This document shows positions 43,366-54,100 of a stretch of 64,000 nt of DNA, in pieces; position 1 is the stretch's first letter; each line of letters begins with the position of its first letter. A program made the translations under genes and the position numbers. The stretch is from contig NZ_CP109444.1 of NCBI RefSeq assembly GCF_036227225.1, forward strand, positions 9,095,501-9,159,500, in the 5' to 3' direction. The notes beneath the pieces are model-generated. The model did not search any database. It was given only the letters and a program-made list of their open reading frames with translations, and had not been told where the DNA came from. Origin of the DNA: Streptomyces sp. NBC_01478 (GTDB lineage: Bacteria > Actinomycetota > Actinomycetes > Streptomycetales > Streptomycetaceae).

Positions 43366-44676
<1,311 letters not shown>

Positions 44677-44720
44677 TTAGTCGCGTGGTGGCGGTGAAAG
44701 TGACGTGATGGATGAATCTG

Positions 44721-44757
44721 TAGCCTATGTCCTGCGATATCGGTAGCCTCCGGTGTC
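44721..44757 (+). promoter_or_regulatory. Probable leaderless promoter of the NimA-like gene
   Basis: TAGCCT occurs at 44721-44726 and again at 44744-44749; the second ends 8 bases before the ATG at 44758, the spacing of a -10 element for a leaderless message. No ribosome-binding site is seen in front of that ATG. Confidence 0.4.
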
Positions 44758-45417
44758 ATGACCGAACAGCTCCCCGTCACCGACCGCACCCGCCACAGCC
44801 GGCTCCGCGAGCAGGGCAGCCTCGACCGGGCCGACCTGGAGGCGATCCTCGACGCCGGGTTCGTCTGTCACCTGGGGGTCGTGATCGAGGGACGACCGGT
44901 CGTGGTCCCCACGGTGTACGGGAGGGAGGATCGGCGGCTGTATCTCCACGGGTCCGTCGCGAGTCGTAGCCTCGCGGGCGGAGACCCCGTGTGCGTCACC
45001 GTCACGCACGTCGACGGGCTGGTGCTGGCCCGGTCCGTCTTCGAGCACGGGGTGAACTACCGCAGCGCGATGATCCACGGGGTGCCCCAAAAGGTCACCG
45101 ACCCGGAGGAGAAACTGGCCGGCCTCCGCCGCATCACCGACCACGCGACACCCGGCCAGTGGTCGTACGCCCGCCTCCCCAACCGCAAGGAACTCGCCGC
45201 GACCACCCTGCTCGCCCTCTCCCTGGAGGAAGCCTCCGTCAAGATCCGCACGGGCGGCCCCGACGACGGGGACGGCCCGGACGCCGACCTGGGCCTGTGG
45301 GCGGGAACGCTGCCGCTGACTTCGACCTGGGGCACGCCCGTGCCGGACCCGGCGCTGCCGGCGAACATCCTGGTGCCGGAGCATGTGGCGTGCCGCGAGG
45401 GGATGGGGCAGGGCTGA
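44758..45417 (+). CDS. NimA-like / pyridoxamine 5'-phosphate oxidase-fold flavoprotein
   Basis: 219 residues. The split-barrel flavin fold is shown by LDAGFVCHLGVVIEGRPVVVPTVYGREDRRLYLHGSVASR and later VTVTHVDGLVLARSVFEHGVNYRSAMIHG, the standard start of NimA-related proteins. It probably binds FMN or heme and reduces a small molecule; members include nitroimidazole-resistance proteins, but that activity is not implied. No partner gene: the alditol oxidase lies on the other strand and repeats follow. Confidence 0.88.
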   Translation: MTEQLPVTDRTRHSRLREQGSLDRADLEAILDAGFVCHLGVVIEGRPVVVPTVYGREDRRLYLHGSVASRSLAGGDPVCVTVTHVDGLVLARSVFEHGVNYRSAMIHGVPQKVTDPEEKLAGLRRITDHATPGQWSYARLPNRKELAATTLLALSLEEASVKIRTGGPDDGDGPDADLGLWAGTLPLTSTWGTPVPDPALPANILVPEHVACREGMGQG

Positions 45418-45429
45418 CCTGGCGATGAT

Positions 45430-45807
45430 CTCTGTGCGTTGGTGGTGGTCCTGCGTTGGTGGTAGTTCCGAGCCGGTGCTGCTCCCGCGCTGGCGATGAC
45501 CTCTCTGCGCTGGTGGCGCTCCCGAGCTGGTGGTGCTCCCGTGCCGGCGGTGACCTCTCTGTGCCGGTGACCTCTCTGCGCCGGTGATAGTTCCGAGCCG
45601 GTGCTGCTCCCGTGCCGGCGGTGACCTCTCTGTGCCGGTGGTGCTCCCGCGCTGGCGACGGCCCATCTGGGCCGGTGGTACTCCCGTGCCGGTGGTGCTC
45701 CCGTGCCGGTGGTGCTCCCGTGCCGGTGGTGCTCCCGTGCCGGTGGTGCTCCCGTGCCGGTGGTGCTCCCGTGCCGGTGGTGCTCCCGTGCTGGTGGTGC
45801 TCCCGCG
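45430..45807. repeat. 17-bp tandem repeat array (minisatellite), degenerate to perfect
   Basis: The unit is CCGGTGGTGCTCCCGTG. Eight units in perfect 17-bp register run from 45672 to 45807 (starts at 45672, 45689, 45706, 45723, 45740, 45757, 45774, 45791; the first and last carry point changes). Upstream to about 45430 the same unit continues in worn form, mixed with variants containing GACCTCTCTG. Because 17 is not a multiple of 3, all frames read as repeats (for example His/Arg/Gly/Thr-rich on the minus strand); I treat these as non-coding. Part of a 1.18 kb gap without a supportable gene. Confidence 0.9.
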
Positions 45808-46023
45808 TATAGGCGCTCCCGCGCCGTCGAGGGGTGGTGACGCCGAGGGCGAATTGCCGCCCGGCCCGTCCTGCTCTGGCCCGCTCGGCCCGCCCAGTCC
45901 GGCTCGGCCCGCCCTGCCCCGGCCCGACAGCCCGAATGGCCCGACAGCCCGACCGGCCCGCCTGGCCCGCTCTCCTGGGCCCCTCCCGGGCCCGCTCTTG
46001 AGTCCGCCCGCACGAGAATCCCG

Positions 46024-46440
46024 CCGCGACGGCGAGTACCGACCACCGCGCGTCCCGGCGGTGCCGAGCCGTCCCCACCCCCCGACCGGACGTAACCCCC
46101 GGCGACCCCTGTGCCGCGACGGCGAGTACCGACCACCGCGCGTCCCGGCGGTGCCGAACCGTCCCCACCCCGCCGACCCGACGTAATCCCCGGCGACCTC
46201 TGTGCCGCGACGGCGAGTACCGACCACCGCGCGTCCCGGCGGCGCCGAGCCGTCCCCACCCCGCCGACCGGACGTAATCCCCGGCGACCTCTGTGCCGCG
46301 ACGGCGAGTACCGACCACCGTGCGTCCCGGCGGTGCCGAGCCGTCCCCACCCCCCGACCCGACGTAACCCCCGGCGACCCCTGTGCCGCGACGGCGAGCA
46401 CCCACCACCGCACGCCCCGGCGGCGCCGAACCAGCACCGC
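46024..46440. repeat. 90/91-bp tandem repeat array
   Basis: Units begin CCGCGACGGCGAGTACCGAC and start at 46024, 46114, 46205, 46296 and 46386, giving lengths of 90, 91, 91 and 90 bp; the fifth copy decays near 46440. Copies differ only at scattered bases. Each contains a run of C (CCCCACCCC...CCCCC) that is G-rich on the other strand. The 1-bp length differences break every reading frame, so the array is not coding. Between the two arrays (45808-46023) the sequence is C-rich and simple, with no gene. Confidence 0.9.
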
Positions 46441-46598
46441 CCCTCGACCCACCCACGCCAACCTCCCCGCACGACACACCCCGGCGGTACCAGACCCACC
46501 CCCCCCTGACACCCCGCCCCGACCGCCCGACCGCCGGGGGCATACCGTGAGGAGTCGTACGCCTGAGCAGGGCGCCTGAGCCGGGAGGAGACAACGGG

Positions 46599-47936
46599 AT
46601 GGGCAGCCGTACCGCGCTGGTCGAGGATCTGATGGAGCGCTTTCCGCATGTGCCGCGGGAGGCCGTCTTCAAGGAGGACCTGTTGCGCGGGGGTGTCGCC
46701 TTCGACCCGTCCGCGCTCAGCGACAACGAGGGTGGTGAGGTGAAGCCGAAGTCGTACTTCATCTTCTCCTTCGACCACGGCACCCTGCCGGAGCTGGGCG
46801 AGGCCGCGCTCAGGCGCCCGCCCGAGGAGATCATCCTCACCGGTGGGCCGTACGACCTGCGACGGACCGTCGTCTCCGTGCGCGTGAACCCGGCCTCGCC
46901 CTACCGCGTGGCTTCCGACGAGGACGGTGTCCTCGGGCTGTACCTCGACGGGAAGCGGATCGCCGACGTCGGTGTGCCGCCGATGCCGGAGTACTACAAG
47001 CACAAGCTCGCCAACGGGAAGTCCGTCATGGAGGTGGCCCCGACCATCCAGTGGGGCTACCTGATCTACCTGACGGTCTTCCGCGTCTGCCAGTACTTCG
47101 GCGCCAAGGAGGAGTGCCAGTACTGCGACATCAACCACAACTGGCGCCAGCACAAGGCGGCCGGGCGACCGTACACGGGCGTCAAGGACGTCGAGGAGGT
47201 GCTGGAGGCGCTCGAGATCATCGACCGCTACGACACCGCGAAGGTGTCCACCGCCTACACCCTCACCGGCGGCGCGATCACCAAGACCGTCGCCGGGCGT
47301 GACGAGGCCGACTTCTACGGCCACTACGCCAAGGCCATCGAGGAGCGCTTCCCGGGCCGCTGGATCGGCAAGGTCGTCGCCCAGGCGCTGCCGAAGGACG
47401 ACGTGCAGCGCTTCAAGGACTACGGCGTGCAGATCTACCACCCCAACTACGAGGTGTGGGACGAGTATCTGTTCAAGCTGCACTGCCCGGGCAAGGAGCG
47501 GTACGTCGGCCGCGCCGAGTGGCACAAGCGCATCCTCGACTCCGCGGAGATCTTCGGCGCGCGCAACGTGATCCCCAACTTCGTGGCCGGCGTGGAGATG
47601 GCGGAGCCGTTCGGCTTCACGACCGTCGACGAGGCGATCGCGTCCACCACCGAGGGCCTGCGCTTCTTCATGTCGAAGGGCATCACGCCCCGCTTCACGA
47701 CCTGGTGCCCCGAGCCGACCACCCCGCTGGGCAAGGCCAATCCGCAGGGTGCGCCGCTGGAGTACCACATCCGGCTGCTGGAGGCCTACCGCGCCACGAT
47801 GGAGGACTTCGGGCTCAAGTCGCCGCCCGGATACGGCGAACCGGGCCCCGGCCGCGCGGTGTTCTCCGTCAGCTCCTTCATGGACAGTCTGCCCGCCGAA
47901 CCCGCCGAACCCGCCGAGGAGCCCGCGCCTTTGTAA
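46599..47936 (+). CDS. Radical SAM protein with Cx8Cx2C cluster motif
   Basis: 445 residues. The region LIYLTVFRVCQYFGAKEECQYC has cysteines at about 164, 173 and 176, that is C-x8-C-x2-C rather than the common C-x3-C-x2-C, yet the aromatic residue before the last Cys and the following DINHNW are as in radical SAM proteins. A GGAITK-type SAM segment (YTLTGGAITKTV) and IYHPNYEVWDEYLF follow, then a C-terminal strand FFMSKGITPRFTTWCPEPTTPLG. About 150 residues precede the cluster. Soluble enzyme; reaction unknown. GGGAGGAG lies upstream of the ATG. It stands alone, after the repeat arrays. Confidence 0.85.
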   Translation: MGSRTALVEDLMERFPHVPREAVFKEDLLRGGVAFDPSALSDNEGGEVKPKSYFIFSFDHGTLPELGEAALRRPPEEIILTGGPYDLRRTVVSVRVNPASPYRVASDEDGVLGLYLDGKRIADVGVPPMPEYYKHKLANGKSVMEVAPTIQWGYLIYLTVFRVCQYFGAKEECQYCDINHNWRQHKAAGRPYTGVKDVEEVLEALEIIDRYDTAKVSTAYTLTGGAITKTVAGRDEADFYGHYAKAIEERFPGRWIGKVVAQALPKDDVQRFKDYGVQIYHPNYEVWDEYLFKLHCPGKERYVGRAEWHKRILDSAEIFGARNVIPNFVAGVEMAEPFGFTTVDEAIASTTEGLRFFMSKGITPRFTTWCPEPTTPLGKANPQGAPLEYHIRLLEAYRATMEDFGLKSPPGYGEPGPGRAVFSVSSFMDSLPAEPAEPAEEPAPL

Positions 47937-48150
47937 GGTAACGGTGTGGCCAACTCCTGCGACGGGTGAGTCGGGAGAGGCTCGGACACGTACAACTGCA
48001 TAGAGGCGACTGACAGTTACCGCAATTGAATACGCGGCTTGTCAGTTGTGTGGGACGCGTGAAAGGCTCTGGCCCTGTCACGAGGCAGCCCCCCTCCAAC
48101 TTGCTTACCGTCAGAGCTAGTTGGCCGTCATTCGTGGATGCAGGAGACCC

Positions 48151-49656
48151 ATGCCCGACCTGCCGACTCCTCAGGACGCCGCTGAGGCAGCGCTCTTCAC
48201 CGAGAGCTGGGACGCCGTGCTGTCCTACGCCGACCTGTGCACGTCCGGAGCCGCCACGGCCACCGAACTGGCCAGTGAGGCCTTCGCGCTCGGCATACAG
48301 GAGGCCCGTTCCGCCGGGTCCGGCCCGATGCGCGGACCGGCCCGTCGCGTACTGCCGGTGATACCGCTGCTGCTGACCGCCGTACGGACCACGGCGGCGG
48401 CCTGGGAGTTCGCCGGGCGGGGGCACCGGCTCGACCCGGACCTGCGGCTGTGGCTCAACTCGGAGAAGGCGGCCCGCTATCACGGCATGCCGCTGCAGCG
48501 CCCGATCGCCCTGCGCGGTCTGCGGGATCTGCAGGAGGCGGACGCTGCGCTGCTGTGGCTGGCCGAGGTGGAGGCGCTGCCGCTGCCCGTCGTGGCCCGC
48601 CGGCTCGGCCTCGACCCGGCGATCGTCTCCAGTGAACTCGCCCAGGTGCGGGCCCTGTTCAGGGACCGCTGCCACCGCAGCCACCTCGACACACCGATGG
48701 CCGCGGAGTGCCGCAGCTACGCCCGGCTGCTGGACGCGGTGACCCGTTCGCCCGCCGCCGACACACCCGAGGACCTCTCACGGCACCTCGCCACCTGTGT
48801 GCAGTGCGCGGAGGCCGCCGCCTGTCTGCGGCTGGCCGGCGGCGGACTGCCCGCGGCCCTCGCGGGCGGGGTGATCGGCTGGGGCGGGCTCGCCTATCTG
48901 GAGCGCCGCCGCCGGGCCGCCGAGGTACGGCTGGGCGCGGGGCGTCCCGTGGCCGAACTGGAGGCCGGGGAGCCGAAGGAGGGCGCGAGCAAGGCGCGCC
49001 TGGTGCGCAACGGACTGCTCGCCGCGGCCGTCGTCCTGTCGCTGGTGGCGCTCGGGGTGTCGATGATGCCGATGGGCGGCTCCGGGCACGACAACGCGGC
49101 CAGTGACGACGCCGACCGTCAGGCGGTGGCCGATCCCGGCCCCAGCATCTCGTCCGTCGGTGCCCACCCGTCGAGCACGGCCTCGCCGTCCGGCCGGCCC
49201 GCGGCGAGCGGCACGGCGACCACCTCCGGGGACAAGAACCCCGACACGGAACCCCAGGGCACCGCCTCGGCCACGGCGAGCAACTCACCGGCGCCGACGA
49301 GGAGTTCGGGCGCGGGTTCCGGTTCGGACACGCCCGCGCCGGCGAGCTGCGAGGTCACCTACGACCTCGTCGGCCAGTGGCCCGACGGCTTCCAGGCCGC
49401 CGTCACCGTCACCACCACCAAGGCCCTCGACACCTGGCGCGTCGCCTGGTCCTACCGCGACGGCCAGCAGGTCACCCAGATGTGGGACGCGAGCGTCGCC
49501 CAGGACGGCTCCCGGGTCAGCGCCACCGCCGCCGACTACAACAAGAACGTCGCCGCGGACGGCAGCTTCACCTTCGGCTTCCTCGGCACGTGGAACAACA
49601 GCAAGAACTCCGCGCCGTCCGGATTCACGCTCAACGGCACGGCCTGCAGCAACTAG
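48151..49656 (+). CDS. Sigma-4-like / zinc-finger / transmembrane / CBM2 fusion protein
   Basis: About 501 residues in five parts. Residues 1-180: sigma-factor-like helices ending in a region-4-type helix-turn-helix (ALPLPVVARRLGLDPAIVSSELAQVR). About 190-230: a zinc-finger / ZAS-like H-x3-C-x2-C (LSRHLATCVQCAEA). About 290-312: a membrane helix (GLLAAAVVLSLVALGVSMM). Then a Ser/Thr/Pro linker of some 80 residues. Last 100: a CBM2 cellulose-binding domain (CEVTYDLVGQWPDGFQAAVTV...FGFLGTWNNSKNSAPSGFTLNGTAC) with two end cysteines and surface Trp residues. Topology would put the regulator inside and CBM2 outside. ATG at 48151 with CAGGAGA upstream. Confidence 0.85.
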   Translation: MPDLPTPQDAAEAALFTESWDAVLSYADLCTSGAATATELASEAFALGIQEARSAGSGPMRGPARRVLPVIPLLLTAVRTTAAAWEFAGRGHRLDPDLRLWLNSEKAARYHGMPLQRPIALRGLRDLQEADAALLWLAEVEALPLPVVARRLGLDPAIVSSELAQVRALFRDRCHRSHLDTPMAAECRSYARLLDAVTRSPAADTPEDLSRHLATCVQCAEAAACLRLAGGGLPAALAGGVIGWGGLAYLERRRRAAEVRLGAGRPVAELEAGEPKEGASKARLVRNGLLAAAVVLSLVALGVSMMPMGGSGHDNAASDDADRQAVADPGPSISSVGAHPSSTASPSGRPAASGTATTSGDKNPDTEPQGTASATASNSPAPTRSSGAGSGSDTPAPASCEVTYDLVGQWPDGFQAAVTVTTTKALDTWRVAWSYRDGQQVTQMWDASVAQDGSRVSATAADYNKNVAADGSFTFGFLGTWNNSKNSAPSGFTLNGTACSN

Positions 49657-49704
49657 CCCTGACCGTCCGGCTGTTCGTACGACCGCTCATACGGCTGTCC
49701 GTCC

Positions 49705-49736
49705 GGCTGCCATCCGGTTGTTCCCGGATGACAGCC
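49705..49736. terminator. Bidirectional terminator between convergent genes
   Basis: GGCTGCCATCCGG (49705-49717) pairs with CCGGATGACAGCC (49724-49736) with one mismatch and a 6-base loop. It sits midway in the 95-bp gap between the CBM2 fusion gene and the DUF4157 gene, both pointing into it. Confidence 0.85.
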
Positions 49737-49751
49737 GGGCGAACTACGCGT

Positions 49752-51857
49752 TCACGAACCGGTGTTGGTGCGCTTGCCGATCAAGTCCCGGTACAGGGCG
49801 GCACGTTCCTCGGGCGTCTTGGCCTTGGCCAGTTCGGCCTTCCAGTCCTTCTCCAGGTTCTTCAGCCGCTGCACCCACTCGCCGAACTTGTCCAGGTCGA
49901 CATGGCGTTGGCTCGAAGCGAGGGGGGCGTCGGCGCCGGGCTTGTCGTCCTTGTGGCCGCCGAACTGGCTCACCGGGTTGTTCTTCTTCTCGCTGCTCGT
50001 GATGCCGTGTTCGTAGCCGTCGGGAGTCCGTCCCCCGGGCCCGGCGGTCTCCAGGCCGACCTGAAGTCCCCCGTCGCGCTTGTTCGTCGGAGGCTTGTAC
50101 CCCATGAACATGTGTCCGTACGACTCGTTCGGCAGGATGGTGTCGCCGTGGTAGTCGGCGTTACCCATGCCTCCGGTGGCCAAGGGCAGGCCGTAGAGGT
50201 GGGTGCCGGGATCGAACCAGTTCTGCACGGTGGCGCCGAACTCGCCCTTCTCCACGAACGCGCCCCGCGTTCCCTCCGGCCTGTCGTTCTTGCCGATCTT
50301 CAGGTGATGGGTGGCGAACAGGCGCCGGGACACCGGCTCCTCGGGCGTCGACTTGGGTTCCCAGAACTTCCGGTCCTCCTTGGTGATGTGGAGCCACTGG
50401 GGCAGCTCGTAGCCGTGCTCGCCGTCCGCCAACTGCGGGATACGGATGTTGACGCGTCCGCCGTAGGCCAGGGCGTGCGCGACGTCGTCCTTGAAGTCCT
50501 CGTGCATCTGCGTCTTCGGATTGAAGACCGTCAGCCCCTCCTTCAGGATCAGGAAGATCTTGGTCAGCACCTCGGTGCCGCGCTCGACCCGCTCCCGGTG
50601 CTTGTCCGCGTCCGGCACGGAGTCGCTGATACCGGGCGGGAGCATGGTCGCGACGAAGGTCTGGAAGATCTGGTCGTTCCGTTCCCCCGTGAGCTGGTCC
50701 TTCTCCGACCGCGGGGTCTCCTGGTCGTGCATGGCCATGTGGCGGCCGAGCTGGTAGTCCGAGCGGGCGGGCTTGTCCGGTGACTTCCCCTCGCCGCGCT
50801 CTTCGACGTTCTGGTGCCAGCGCAGGGTGGCCACGAGGAGGCGTTTGCCCTCGGGCTGCTGGAGCCAGTTGTGGAAATCGCCGGCCTGGAGGTACGCGTC
50901 GGCTTCGGTGGTGCTGCACATCCCCACGGTCTTCAGCCACCTGGGATCCTCGGACTCCACGGCCTTGATCGCGTCGAGTTCCGCGTCCGTGAAGCTCGGG
51001 CCACTGCGCACCCGCCGGTGGATGACGTCCCGTACGTCCTTGTTCCTGATCGCCGTCTCGCCGCCGACGAGCAGCCGCGCGAGACGGGCGATGGCCGGGG
51101 GCGAGGCCGCGATCGGGGGTGAGGGCGAGGTAGGGGGCGGGGTCGTGCTCTGCGCCGGAGGGGTGGTCGACGGTCCGGGCCGGTCCGCCCGCTGGACGGA
51201 GACCTCCCCGGCCACGCTGCGCTGCACCGCCGCACCGGGTGAGGCGGCCCCGGGCAGCGACAGATCGGGGGCACCGCCCCGGGCCAGCTTCCGGCCGTTG
51301 GCGCCGGCGCTCCGCTCGAACGGGTCGTCAGGGTGGGAGACCTTCTCGCCCCGGCCGTTGTCGGTGCCGGGCACGGGCCCGAAAGCCTGCTGGCGTACGT
51401 GGTCGACCTCTTCGAACATCACCTCGTCCTCGACACGGCTGCCGCCGAGCACGATGTGGGAACCGGTGGTGTAGGCAAGGGCGCCGAGCTCCTCGGCCGA
51501 GCGCTGGGCCACCGGGTCGTTGTGCACGCGTACATGCCCGAAGTCCATGCTGTACGCCCGCTCGGCGCGCTGCAGGATGCGCGGCTCCAGCGGCCGGCCG
51601 GGAGAACCGACGGCGTCGACGACGGACGACCGCCGCTGCACCGGCACGGCCGCCTCGGTCCCACCAGCCCCACCAGCCCCACCGTGCTGCTCCTCGGCGT
51701 GCTGCTCGTCCCGCGCCCGCTGGATCGCGCGGCTCACCGCGGCGTTCCCGGCGGCCTGTTGGAGCGCGGCGAGCGGCGGCAGGGCGGCGGCGGGCCGGGA
51801 CGCGGGGCGTTTGCCGGCACGGTCACCGTTCGCGCGGTTCTCTCCCTGGATACGCAT
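49752..51857 (-). CDS. DUF4157 (eCIS-effector-type) protein with unknown C-terminal domain
   Basis: 701 residues, no signal peptide. Residues about 85-155 are DUF4157: PLEPRILQRAERAYSMDFGHVRVHNDPVAQRSAEELGALAYTTGSHIVLG, then EDEVMFEEVDHVRQQ. In normal members the last part is HE-L-x-H-V-x-Q-Q; here the first His is Glu (EEVDH, about residues 148-152), so the zinc protease site is probably lost. DUF4157 is a known marker of extracellular contractile injection system cargo. A Pro-rich linker (220-260) leads to about 440 residues I cannot assign (DPRWLKTVGMCSTTEADAYL, RRLFATHHLKIGKN, THLYGLPLATGGMGNADYHG, SYGHMFMGYKPP). No injection-system genes are in the window. Confidence 0.85.
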   Translation of the reverse strand: MRIQGENRANGDRAGKRPASRPAAALPPLAALQQAAGNAAVSRAIQRARDEQHAEEQHGGAGGAGGTEAAVPVQRRSSVVDAVGSPGRPLEPRILQRAERAYSMDFGHVRVHNDPVAQRSAEELGALAYTTGSHIVLGGSRVEDEVMFEEVDHVRQQAFGPVPGTDNGRGEKVSHPDDPFERSAGANGRKLARGGAPDLSLPGAASPGAAVQRSVAGEVSVQRADRPGPSTTPPAQSTTPPPTSPSPPIAASPPAIARLARLLVGGETAIRNKDVRDVIHRRVRSGPSFTDAELDAIKAVESEDPRWLKTVGMCSTTEADAYLQAGDFHNWLQQPEGKRLLVATLRWHQNVEERGEGKSPDKPARSDYQLGRHMAMHDQETPRSEKDQLTGERNDQIFQTFVATMLPPGISDSVPDADKHRERVERGTEVLTKIFLILKEGLTVFNPKTQMHEDFKDDVAHALAYGGRVNIRIPQLADGEHGYELPQWLHITKEDRKFWEPKSTPEEPVSRRLFATHHLKIGKNDRPEGTRGAFVEKGEFGATVQNWFDPGTHLYGLPLATGGMGNADYHGDTILPNESYGHMFMGYKPPTNKRDGGLQVGLETAGPGGRTPDGYEHGITSSEKKNNPVSQFGGHKDDKPGADAPLASSQRHVDLDKFGEWVQRLKNLEKDWKAELAKAKTPEERAALYRDLIGKRTNTGS

Positions 51858-52001
51858 GCACGGTTCCCCTTCGGTCGGCGCGCGCCCTTCTCTGGTGCGG
51901 GCGCTCTTCCCTCTTACCGGACGGGGGCCCGAGGGAGGGGAGTCCGAAGGGGCAGAGTCGGGGGCAGACCTGATGGGCGTTGCGAGCGAGCAGGCGTGTG
52001 T

Positions 52002-52040
52002 GGGGTGGGTGGGGGATGGAGGGTGGGTGGGCCGGGTGGG
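52002..52040 (+). other. G-quadruplex-type G-tract cluster
   Basis: Seven runs of three or more G separated by one to five bases between 52002 and 52040 (GGGGTGGGTGGGGG at 52002-52015, then more). It lies 145 bp upstream of the DUF4157 start and next to a terminator. Confidence 0.6.
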
Positions 52041-52047
52041 TGGACCA

Positions 52048-52083
52048 GGGCCCTGGCCGGCAGTCGGACGGCGGCCAGGGCCC
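52048..52083 (-). terminator. Terminator after the LAxTG protein gene
   Basis: GGGCCCTGGCCG (52048-52059) and CGGCCAGGGCCC (52072-52083) form a perfect 12-bp stem with a 12-base loop, 5 bp beyond the stop codon of the leftward gene. Confidence 0.85.
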
Positions 52084-52088
52084 GGCGC

Positions 52089-53336
52089 TCAGAGCCGGTT
52101 CTGGCGGCGGCGCAGAGCGATGAAGCCGAGCGTGCCCACTCCGGCGGTGATGAGGGCCGTCGCGCCCACGGTGGTCGTCGAGATCCCGCTGTTTCCGGTC
52201 TTGGCGAGCTGTGTGGTGCTCCCGGAGGAGGTCGTTCCGGAGACCGTCCCGGAGGACGTGGTGGCGGTCGGGGAGGTGGTCGCCGTGGTCGTCGCGGAGG
52301 GTGTGGTCGACGCGGAGGAGGTGGCGGTCGCGGAGGGCGTGGTCGATGCCGTCGGGGTGGTGCCGGAGGCCGCCGCCTTCACGTCGGTCGACGCCGACGC
52401 GCCGCAGAAGGTGGTGCCGGTGAACGGTGTCGATCCCTGGTTGACGAACACGCAGGGGTGCACGGTGGTCGTGCCGGCCGGCGCGTCCTTGCGGTAGGCC
52501 AGGCGGATCTTGGCGACGGTGCTGCTGTCCGCCGCCATGGAGGCGTCCTTGCCGACGATGTCGAAGCCGTAGAGGTCCGGTTCGGCGTTGGCGGTGATCG
52601 GCTGAAGCGTCTTCCAGGTGCCGGAACGCAGTACCTGCACGGTGGCGTAGCGGCTGGTGAACAGCACCCCCGTCAGGTTCTCGTACGCCGAGGGCGTGGC
52701 GTTGTTCACGGTGGCCTGGAAGGTGATGCCGGGGCCGCCCGCGGTGACGGTGGCGGGTACGGCGGACAGGCCGACGGTGGGCGCGTCGACATTGACGGTG
52801 TCCTCGTCGGTGTCGTTGGCGGCGCCCGAACTGCCGTAGGAGATAAGGGTGGTGAGCTTCAGGCTGTTCGTGCCGCCGTTGCCGTCGCCGTGGTGCGGGG
52901 TGCCCATGGGCAGGCCGAGGCGCAGTTGGACGGTCCGCGACTGGGCGGCGGCCAGCGGGAAGGACTCGGGCAGTTCGCCGGAGAACTGCGTGCCGGACAG
53001 GGCGAGCGGCACCGTCTTCCACGCCGTTCCGCCGAGCCGGTACTCCAGGCTGACGGCGTTCGACGGCAGGCCGCCACCGCCGTCGATGTGGTAGATCAAC
53101 CGCGCCGAAGTGGTGTCGTCCGTCCCGACGTTGGACGCCGTGGTGGTGAAGTCGACCGGCCGGCCCGCCAGTCCGAGCTCGGCCGGCGCCGCGGTGGAGA
53201 CGGAGAGTGCCGGCGGCTGCGGGTCCGCCGGCGCGGCGGTGGCCGCCGGCGCCAGGACGGCTCCGGTGGCGGCCAGCAACAGCCCGGCCCCCGCGACCGT
53301 GACGGACGAACGCAGCATGCGTGCGGAGCTGTTCAA
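52089..53336 (-). CDS. Sortase-anchored (LAxTG) secreted surface protein
   Basis: 415 residues. Signal peptide (SSVTVAGAGLLLAATGAVLAPAATAA), two beta-sandwich domains of about 130 residues each (PPALSVSTAAPAELGLAGRPVDFTTTASNVG and PTVGLSAVPATVTAGGPGITFQATVNN), a 60-residue Ser/Thr/Ala stalk, then LAKTG, a membrane helix and the basic tail RRRQNRL. LAxTG is the sorting signal used by class E sortases of actinomycetes, so the protein is expected on peptidoglycan. Its two domains resemble conserved-repeat/DUF11-like adhesive modules. Ligand unknown. Ends at a strong terminator; monocistronic. Confidence 0.9.
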   Translation of the reverse strand: MNSSARMLRSSVTVAGAGLLLAATGAVLAPAATAAPADPQPPALSVSTAAPAELGLAGRPVDFTTTASNVGTDDTTSARLIYHIDGGGGLPSNAVSLEYRLGGTAWKTVPLALSGTQFSGELPESFPLAAAQSRTVQLRLGLPMGTPHHGDGNGGTNSLKLTTLISYGSSGAANDTDEDTVNVDAPTVGLSAVPATVTAGGPGITFQATVNNATPSAYENLTGVLFTSRYATVQVLRSGTWKTLQPITANAEPDLYGFDIVGKDASMAADSSTVAKIRLAYRKDAPAGTTTVHPCVFVNQGSTPFTGTTFCGASASTDVKAAASGTTPTASTTPSATATSSASTTPSATTTATTSPTATTSSGTVSGTTSSGSTTQLAKTGNSGISTTTVGATALITAGVGTLGFIALRRRQNRL

Positions 53337-53578
53337 CGTTTCCCCCAGGATGCGTGTGTGGCGCGGCCGACTACCGTGCCCGAGCCGACGAGTGGATCAG
53401 CCCGTCTTCTCGCCCAGTTGGACATGCGGACCCGACAACTCGTTGTGGTGGCTCGTGTGACGGTTCTGTCACTGGGGGGTGTGGTTCCGTGCGGCGGTCC
53501 GGGTCCGCGCCCGGGCTTCGGTACGGCCTCAACTCCCGCTGAACCACGACGACTTCCGAGAGCGAGCCGCGGAGGGGA

Positions 53579-54100
53579 CTAGAGCACGAGGACCGTCATC
53601 CAGAGCGCCCACGTTCCCGCCGTGAGGACCAGCACCGTGCCTCCGCTGAGCCAACGGCCGATCCAGATGAGGGTGTTCTGTTCAACTGCCCCGGTTCGTA
53701 GGGCTCGTTCGGCCAGTACGTGACTCAGTTGGCGCGACGCGAACAGCGCACTGGGCAGCGCGGGGAGCAGAGAGAACGCGATCCGCACATACCGTCCCGC
53801 GGTCGCACCGCCCGGGATCAGCAGGAGACCTCCGACTCCGAGCAGGACCGCGATCACGAACCACAGCCATGAGCGGAACGCCAGCACGTCGGAAGCCGGG
53901 GACCACACGCCGTTCTCGGCCTTCCGATGGATCTTTCCCGGCCGAAGCCGGAGCAGCTCCGCCACGGCCTCGTCGGCTTCGGCGGCCGCGGCCGCCGCCT
54001 CCCGCCGATCCCCTCGTTCGGAAACGAGGAACATCCACGTGGTCAGGCGGGTCTCGAAGGCTCGCAGGATCCCCCCGTGGTTCTTGATCGCCGCAGTCAT
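53579..54100 (-). CDS. Small membrane protein of unknown function
   Basis: 173 residues. The first 65 residues are cytoplasmic and Ala/Glu-rich (RREAAAAAAEADEAVAELLRLRPG), then four hydrophobic segments (WLWFVIAVLLGVGGLLLIP, YVRIAFSLLPALPSALFAS, NTLIWIGRWLSGGTVLVL, TAGTWALWMTVLVL). I recognise no family. Codon third positions are somewhat less GC-rich than in neighbours. The start ATG at 54100 has only a weak purine tract before it. Divergent from the alpha/beta hydrolase gene. Confidence 0.65.
   Translation of the reverse strand: MTAAIKNHGGILRAFETRLTTWMFLVSERGDRREAAAAAAEADEAVAELLRLRPGKIHRKAENGVWSPASDVLAFRSWLWFVIAVLLGVGGLLLIPGGATAGRYVRIAFSLLPALPSALFASRQLSHVLAERALRTGAVEQNTLIWIGRWLSGGTVLVLTAGTWALWMTVLVL

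Follow-up and report, generated by a model that had tools for sequence, protein, structure and literature searches.

The 501-residue protein studied here joins sigma2-like and sigma4-like domains, a zinc anti-sigma domain, a membrane helix and a CBM2 module, and this fusion in a single chain is real. We read the protein as a one-pass membrane receptor in which the sigma part would be a mimic, clamped by the protein's own zinc domain and freed to swap partners; judged from sequence, this reading has a probability of roughly 0.55. The sigma part is most likely a mimic because the clamp is conserved while erosion has hit the residues expected to contact core RNA polymerase and promoter DNA.

Overall architecture

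The window is the whole 64-kb stretch of DNA that was analysed; the host genome is a single contig of 12.1 Mb. The features of the gene and its upstream region are given in Table 1. GGAG at 48143–48146 precedes the start codon, and MPDL is the N-terminus in 77 of the 80 translated relatives (best 80 of 291 confirmed). The CBM2-type homologue set used throughout is made up of the best 80 of 291 confirmed relatives at named loci. Among the matches listed, the nearest named relatives of the gene are in Streptomyces sp. MBT65 and S. prunicolor.

A preliminary description of this DNA had proposed sigma-like and ZAS-like parts connected through one membrane helix to an external cellulose-type module in one chain. 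The open reading frame, the domains and the topology agree with this. For the N-terminal part it had named sigma region 4 only; the sigma4-like domain is indeed present, but a degenerate sigma2-like domain precedes it at residues 14–95. The domain search of the C-terminal part found CBM2 at residues 400–499 (PF00553, E 7e-26), as had been proposed.

Table 1. Features of the CBM2 fusion gene and its upstream region (window positions)
Feature	Position	Strand	Remarks
Radical-SAM gene	46599..47936	+	match upstream on the same strand at 80/80 named loci (best 80 of 291); no evident functional link
Conserved stretch of about 120 bp before the start codon	48027..48150	+	candidate promoter, leader or binding site; kept among 81 loci (best 80 of 291 set)
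Whole gene, CBM2-type degenerate sigma / ZAS / membrane fusion	48151..49656	+	501 aa; start ATG 48151, stop ends 49656
Sigma2-like domain, residues 14–95	48190..48435	+	Glu at position 39 (canonical ECFs: Asp)
Sigma4-like domain, residues 119–180	48505..48690	+	recognition-helix segment with E162, Q165
Class-I-type zinc anti-sigma domain, residues 185–262	48703..48936	+	ligands C187, H212, C216, C219; putative helix 4 with V241, G243, W244
Single membrane helix, residues 287–308 (about)	49009..49074	+	hydropathy, charge, AlphaFold2 model
Linker rich in Ser/Thr/Pro, residues 309–399	49075..49347	+	43% S/T/P; fast-evolving
CBM2 module, residues 400–499	49348..49647	+	C400/C499, W410, W445, Y463 invariant 81/81 (best 80 of 291 set)

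Relation of the cytoplasmic part to sigma factors

A Pfam scan of the protein to E 1 returned CBM_2 alone and no sigma domain, and NCBIfam found no sigma family for this protein or for 24 relatives (set A1). Of the curated models, neither TIGR02937 nor Sigma70_r2 recognises the protein; the homology is remote and runs through two relatives, L142 and L014. Seen through such relatives, the sigma and ZAS homology that had been proposed for the N-terminal part is present. Residues 1–320 used as a query find six paralogues in the same genome (L010–L015). Curated models identify L014 and L015 as ECF sigma factors; L014 shows the domain order of ECF52 and carries NPCBM, which we take to be what smart00776 denotes. 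L010–L013 have ricin-type lectin domains, degenerate sigma parts and no curated sigma match above the cut-off. L142, from another genome, matches Sigma70_r2 above the cut-off (E 3.6e-13) and has a ricin-like domain below its cut-off. It aligns with residues 9–250 of our protein, that is, with sigma2, sigma4 and the zinc domain (34% identity, E 1e-25).

An ECF profile made from 16 ECFs of the same genome together with L014 and L015 matches residues 14–171 (domain E 4e-4; best reversed control 1.4). Without L014 and L015, the profile gives a whole-protein score of E 2.7, which is not significant, and this makes the direct link to ordinary ECFs a weak one. The AlphaFold2 model of residues 1–310 (65 sequences, pLDDT 81, pTM 0.76) contains sigma2-like, sigma4-like and anti-sigma helices. 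The first 22 Foldseek rows for this model are sigma factors, by title or by reading of the chain; none reaches E 0.001 and the whole-model TM-scores are about 0.2. For both the sigma2-like and the sigma4-like domain, the best structural matches of the model are sigma factors, with modest scores.

Zinc anti-sigma domain and membrane topology

The ZAS-like part had been recognised correctly. It has a zinc finger of the Hx3Cx2C type, a feature of ECF52, and its four ligands (C187, H212, C216 and C219) are invariant in 81/81 CBM2-type rows (best 80 of 291 set). Across the CBM2, ricin-type and ECF52-type rows taken together (best-match sets), these four residues, G243 and W244 are found in 321/321 and V241 in 320/321. 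The ECF52-type and ricin-type sets comprise the best 120 of 3747 and the best 120 of 944 matches, respectively. The rows of these two sets were trimmed about the first Hx3Cx2C motif, and none of the 240 was dropped for want of it. As all homologue sets consist of best matches, their members are close relatives and are not independent.

The scan of the protein shows one strong membrane helix (hydropathy 2.3 at 288–306), preceded by a basic juxtamembrane stretch, 251–286, with 10 K/R and 6 D/E. A weaker hydrophobic stretch at 232–250 (hydropathy 1.3) has a mean majority frequency of 0.97 and is followed by RRRR. According to the positive-inside rule, the RRRR after this stretch argues against a crossing. 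In the AlphaFold2 model, 232–250 lies within helices directly after the zinc helices. In class I anti-sigma factors, helix 4 is described as binding sigma2 and helix 1 as binding sigma4 (PMC7406223). Stretch 232–250 therefore reads, in the model, as part of the clamp, belonging to the anti-sigma domain and not crossing the membrane, because of the RRRR and because its position in the model is that of class I helix 4. With one membrane helix, a basic side before it and the Ser/Thr/Pro linker after it, the CBM2 module is therefore placed outside the cell. The preliminary description would have failed with CBM2 inside; the charge pattern, hydropathy and model all predict the outside.

Polymerase- and promoter-facing residues

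Position 39, in sigma2.2, is Asp in 16/16 canonical ECFs of the same genome and in 120/120 ECF52-type rows (best 120 listed). We take this residue to be the equivalent of D403 of Escherichia coli sigma70, a contact to the core polymerase. In the CBM2-type set (best 80 of 291) Asp is found in 1/81 (Q66, E10, R4, D1), and in the ricin-type set (best 120 listed) in 0/120. The ricin-type sigma2.2 has Met for the Asp in 118/120 and Ala for the Glu in 120/120 (best 120 listed). Our protein itself has E39, a mild change from Asp, and E43; the latter is kept in 80/81 CBM2-type rows (best 80 of 291 set). Core binding by this protein may thus persist, as E39 is conservative and E43 is kept.

In the sigma4-like domain, position 162 is Glu in 81/81 CBM2-type rows (best 80 of 291 set) and in 118/120 ricin-type rows (best 120 listed). 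Position 165 is Arg in 14/16 canonical and 120/120 ECF52-type rows (best 120), and Gln, Glu or His in 81/81 CBM2-type rows (best 80 of 291). The loss in sigma4 is not uniform, because the ricin-type rows keep R165 (120/120, best 120 listed), mostly with Arg at 160 and 167 too, and the CBM2-type rows keep R167 (79/81, best 80 of 291 set). ECF52-type rows are also without some canonical letters, having Ala at position 42 and Leu at 162. The canonical ECF rows are unreliable in the alignment at positions 79, 80 and 85 (79 and 80 differ between comparisons); positions 39, 162 and 165 and the anti-sigma columns were used.

The mean net charge of sigma2.3/2.4 is 0.7 for CBM2 (n = 11), 1.2 for ricin (n = 14), 4.8 for ECF52-type (n = 6) and 5.1 for canonical rows (n = 16), with overlapping ranges: the recognised sigma factor L015 or L149 has 1, one canonical ECF has 2 and one ricin-type row has 3. 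On other rows the values are −0.3, 0.7, 4.7 and 5.1, respectively. No weight is given to a Mann-Whitney value for these charges, as it takes no account of kinship. The charge of the CBM2 recognition segment depends on where the helix is cut, because a longer recognition window gives +1.1 for the CBM2 group.

Judged from these residues, the sigma part has probably lost promoter reading. E39 and E43 of this protein, the retention of R165 (ricin) or R167 (CBM2) and the overlap in charge count against the mimic reading. The protein might instead be a working ECF52-like membrane sigma factor, in which contact with cellulose leads to cleavage and the released sigma2-sigma4 part drives its own regulon. 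Its domain order is that of SCO4117, for which proteolytic release has been proposed (PMC5826349, PMC8999054), and both the strong purifying selection on the cytoplasmic part and the mildness of E39 would suit a functional sigma factor. We regard this as unlikely, since the promoter- and polymerase-facing residues are lost across the CBM2 relatives and neither Pfam nor NCBIfam gives a sigma match for the protein.

Selection, descent and distribution

Compared with the seven closest loci, dN/dS is 0.13 for sigma2, 0.12 for sigma4, 0.07 for the anti-sigma domain, 0.31 for the membrane helix, 0.47 for CBM2 and 0.56 for the linker. The mean majority frequency is 0.82–0.97 in the sigma and anti-sigma parts and 0.77 in CBM2. 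By both measures, the cytoplasmic part is under selection, evolves more slowly than CBM2 and is not decaying. A surface anchor or adhesin, with CBM2 tethering the hyphae to cellulose and a vestigial cytoplasmic part, would fit the external module on its long linker and the degenerate sigma part; the slow evolution of the sigma and anti-sigma parts relative to CBM2 makes it very improbable.

The tree was built by a quick method with SH-aLRT support only and has some long branches, L013 being the longest. The CBM2 and ricin rows form one clade of 25 rows (SH-aLRT 99) on a long stem, adjoining L142 (join 90). The six NPCBM rows form their own branch (89); the CBM2 rows are placed outside this NPCBM/ECF52 clade, with the ricin rows and L142. 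The most economical interpretation is that promoter reading was lost once, in an ECF52-like lectin sigma factor, before the lineage spread with various sugar-binding heads. For the ancestor of the degenerate clade, the best living proxy in this analysis is L142 (859–2625, minus strand), which combines a recognised sigma domain and a weak ricin-type head in a membrane fusion. Among the relatives of L010 (best 120 listed), most of those with a name are called ricin-domain proteins, and two are named 'DNA-directed RNA polymerase specialized sigma24 family protein' by JGI.

At a threshold of E 1e-60, the CBM2-type gene occurs in 43 of the 121 Streptomyces genomes sampled. In three of these (G055, G068 and G095) the version has only 52–54% identity to the N-terminal query. 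Across 296 genomes sampled from the whole class, 13 matches reach E 1e-100 or better, all within Streptomyces.

The CBM2 module and its ligand

W410, W445 and Y463 align with W, W and W of the cellulose-binding CBM2 of C. fimi. This aromatic trio presumably comprises the cellulose-binding residues. The planar trio and the disulfide cysteines, features of CBM2 type a, are both present, with Tyr as one of the aromatics. The CBM2 matches include the chitin-binding domain of a Streptomyces chitinase (2rtt). The genome itself has 13 CBM2 matches, this gene included, and a GH48 gene.

GH48 is present in 37/43 genomes with the CBM2-type gene vs 34/78 without it (p 6e-6, kinship ignored). For the ricin-type paralogue the figures are 34/38 with vs 37/83 without (p 3e-6, kinship ignored), and the two genes share 37 genomes. 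The co-occurrence with GH48 was taken as a clade effect and rejected as a link to cellulose, the ricin-type paralogue being equally strong.

Regulation by CebR was also considered, with an assumed box sequence. Upstream of the gene, the best site in 81 loci scores no higher than shuffled sequence does, and at 3 mismatches 5 matches occur in the window vs 7.1 expected. Genome-wide, at ≤1 mismatch, there are 8 sites (backwards control 3); 4 are within 1.5 kb of a CBM2 match and none is near this gene. Cellulose regulation through CebR was rejected, there being no box at the gene and a window count below expectation. Neither the GH48 comparison nor the CebR search ties this gene specifically to the use of cellulose.

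The ligand would be a β-1,4-glycan surface; cellulose is the most likely, and chitin or the hyphae's own glucan is possible. A cellulose-like glucan is made at Streptomyces tips. It would be conceivable that the protein senses this glucan of the bacterium itself, or chitin, in place of plant cellulose, and is tied to surface growth or development. CBM2 modules also bind chitin (2rtt is among the matches), no CebR box lies upstream of the gene, and SCO4117 is reported to affect development and antibiotic production (PMC5826349). Set against this are a genome with 13 CBM2 matches and GH48, and the alignment of the trio with the C. fimi module, and we hold the own-glucan or chitin sensor to be possible, at less than even odds. 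It concerns the ligand and is compatible with either mechanism, so the odds are not exclusive.

Genomic surroundings

Next to the fusion gene, no gene for a sigma factor, anti-sigma factor or cellulase was seen in the window, in the neighbour scan or at the named loci, and the lack of a partner sigma or anti-sigma gene there weighs against the mimic reading. The nearest ECF match is about 18 kb upstream, inside the window. For the upstream radical-SAM gene, L051, L066 and L094 have partial matches, and in L091, L096 and L117 the distance to the match exceeds 1 kb. Downstream, the commonest ORF cluster is shared in 48/75 loci, many of the listed frames being shadow ORFs; by eye, no sigma or cellulase gene was seen in the 14 listed downstream clusters.

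The core of the conserved upstream stretch, at 48039–48064, is TTGTCAGTTGTG-N7-CGTGAAA and has one copy in the genome at ≤3 mismatches. The block matches no Rfam family and no sigma-70-type promoter was found in it. At the six paralogue loci the best match to the core has 5–6 mismatches of 15.

The convergent neighbour at 49752–51857 (minus strand) combines an eCIS core domain with a Novel toxin 11 (Ntox11) domain, and its product looks like contractile-injection-system cargo. A match to it lies near 3/80 orthologous loci (best 80 of 291), one of them partial. Long GC-rich tandem arrays (periods 17, 71/125 and 91/181) occupy 45419–46450, between the pyridoxamine-oxidase-like and radical-SAM genes.

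Proposed mechanism

In the proposed mechanism, CBM2 would bind a β-1,4-glycan surface outside the cell. Inside, the sigma2-sigma4 pair, which descends from an ECF52-like membrane sigma factor, would be held by its own zinc anti-sigma domain. The clamp would be opened by external binding or pulling, possibly together with cleavage within or close to the membrane. Either the mimic or the zinc domain, once free, could then exchange partners with a genuine ECF sigma factor or with an anti-sigma factor. The domains, common ancestry, conservation and residue losses are visible in the sequences, whereas topology, ligand, cleavage, mimicry and partner exchange are inferred.

More tentatively, and with somewhat less than even confidence, we suggest a Streptomyces family of transmembrane sigma mimics. 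Its single origin would lie in an ECF52-like sigma factor with a lectin domain; the family would then have lost the polymerase and promoter contacts, kept the intramolecular zinc clamp and spread to CBM2 and ricin-type heads. Its members would signal from outside surfaces to other ECFs by partner switching, with neither a kinase nor transcription activity of their own. If true, this would be a third way for an outside sugar signal to reach transcription, intermediate between the anti-sigma factors of the RsgI type and the sigma factors of the ECF52 type. The usual annotation of these proteins, which mostly mentions no more than cellulose binding or a ricin domain, would then be explained as well, since curated sigma models miss them.

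Comparison with known systems

The preliminary description had likened the protein to RsgI of Clostridium thermocellum, and the outline is indeed alike: an external carbohydrate-binding module, one membrane helix and control of a sigma factor on the inside (PMC12203970). RsgI as described there differs: its partner SigI is a separate protein, its anti-sigma domain is of another kind, and it has a periplasmic domain that cleaves itself. Pfam names neither the RsgI anti-sigma domain nor the self-cleaving domain in the protein or its six neighbours, and no SigI gene is among the six neighbours scanned at 43369–54100. These Pfam domain tests speak against kinship with RsgI.

The closest known kind is ECF52 of the SCO4117 type, not RsgI. 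SCO4117 of Streptomyces coelicolor is described as having a sigma domain, zinc finger, membrane region, proline-rich stretch and carbohydrate-binding module; it carries smart00776 and is called the first characterised ECF52 member (PMC5826349). A truncated, sigma-only allele is reported to be milder than deletion of the gene (PMC5826349; PMC8999054). The sugar-related domains predicted in ECF52 and ECF53 are said to await experimental validation (PMC10766802). In our comparisons, ECF52 is represented by L014 and its relatives, chosen by domain make-up. The order of sigma2-sigma4, zinc finger, membrane helix, low-complexity linker and carbohydrate-binding domain is the same, and sequence and tree indicate shared descent. 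The CBM2 type differs from ECF52 in having CBM2 in place of NPCBM, sigma domains below the recognition of curated models, and a loss of the sigma2.2 Asp and of the sigma2.3/2.4 charge. The linker is rich in Ser/Thr/Pro and not mainly in Pro, and only some Streptomyces are carriers (43/121 sampled).

PhyR of alphaproteobacteria is a known precedent for sigma mimicry; it has a receiver domain and binds a separate anti-sigma factor, NepR (PMC4598750, PMC8103513). In our protein the zinc anti-sigma domain belongs to the same chain, an outside signal would be received, and Pfam finds no PhyR-like receiver domain in the protein. The ricin-lectin paralogues L010–L013 share the scaffold, zinc ligands and clade of the CBM2 type, with a ricin-type β-trefoil in place of CBM2; databases mostly list them as 'ricin-type beta-trefoil lectin' or 'RICIN domain-containing protein'. 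No description of the degenerate CBM2 or ricin-type members was found among the open-licence papers listed. Membrane-fused sigma factors with sugar-binding heads are known, and the probable novelty lies in the degenerate CBM2/ricin clade and in its likely function as a mimic.
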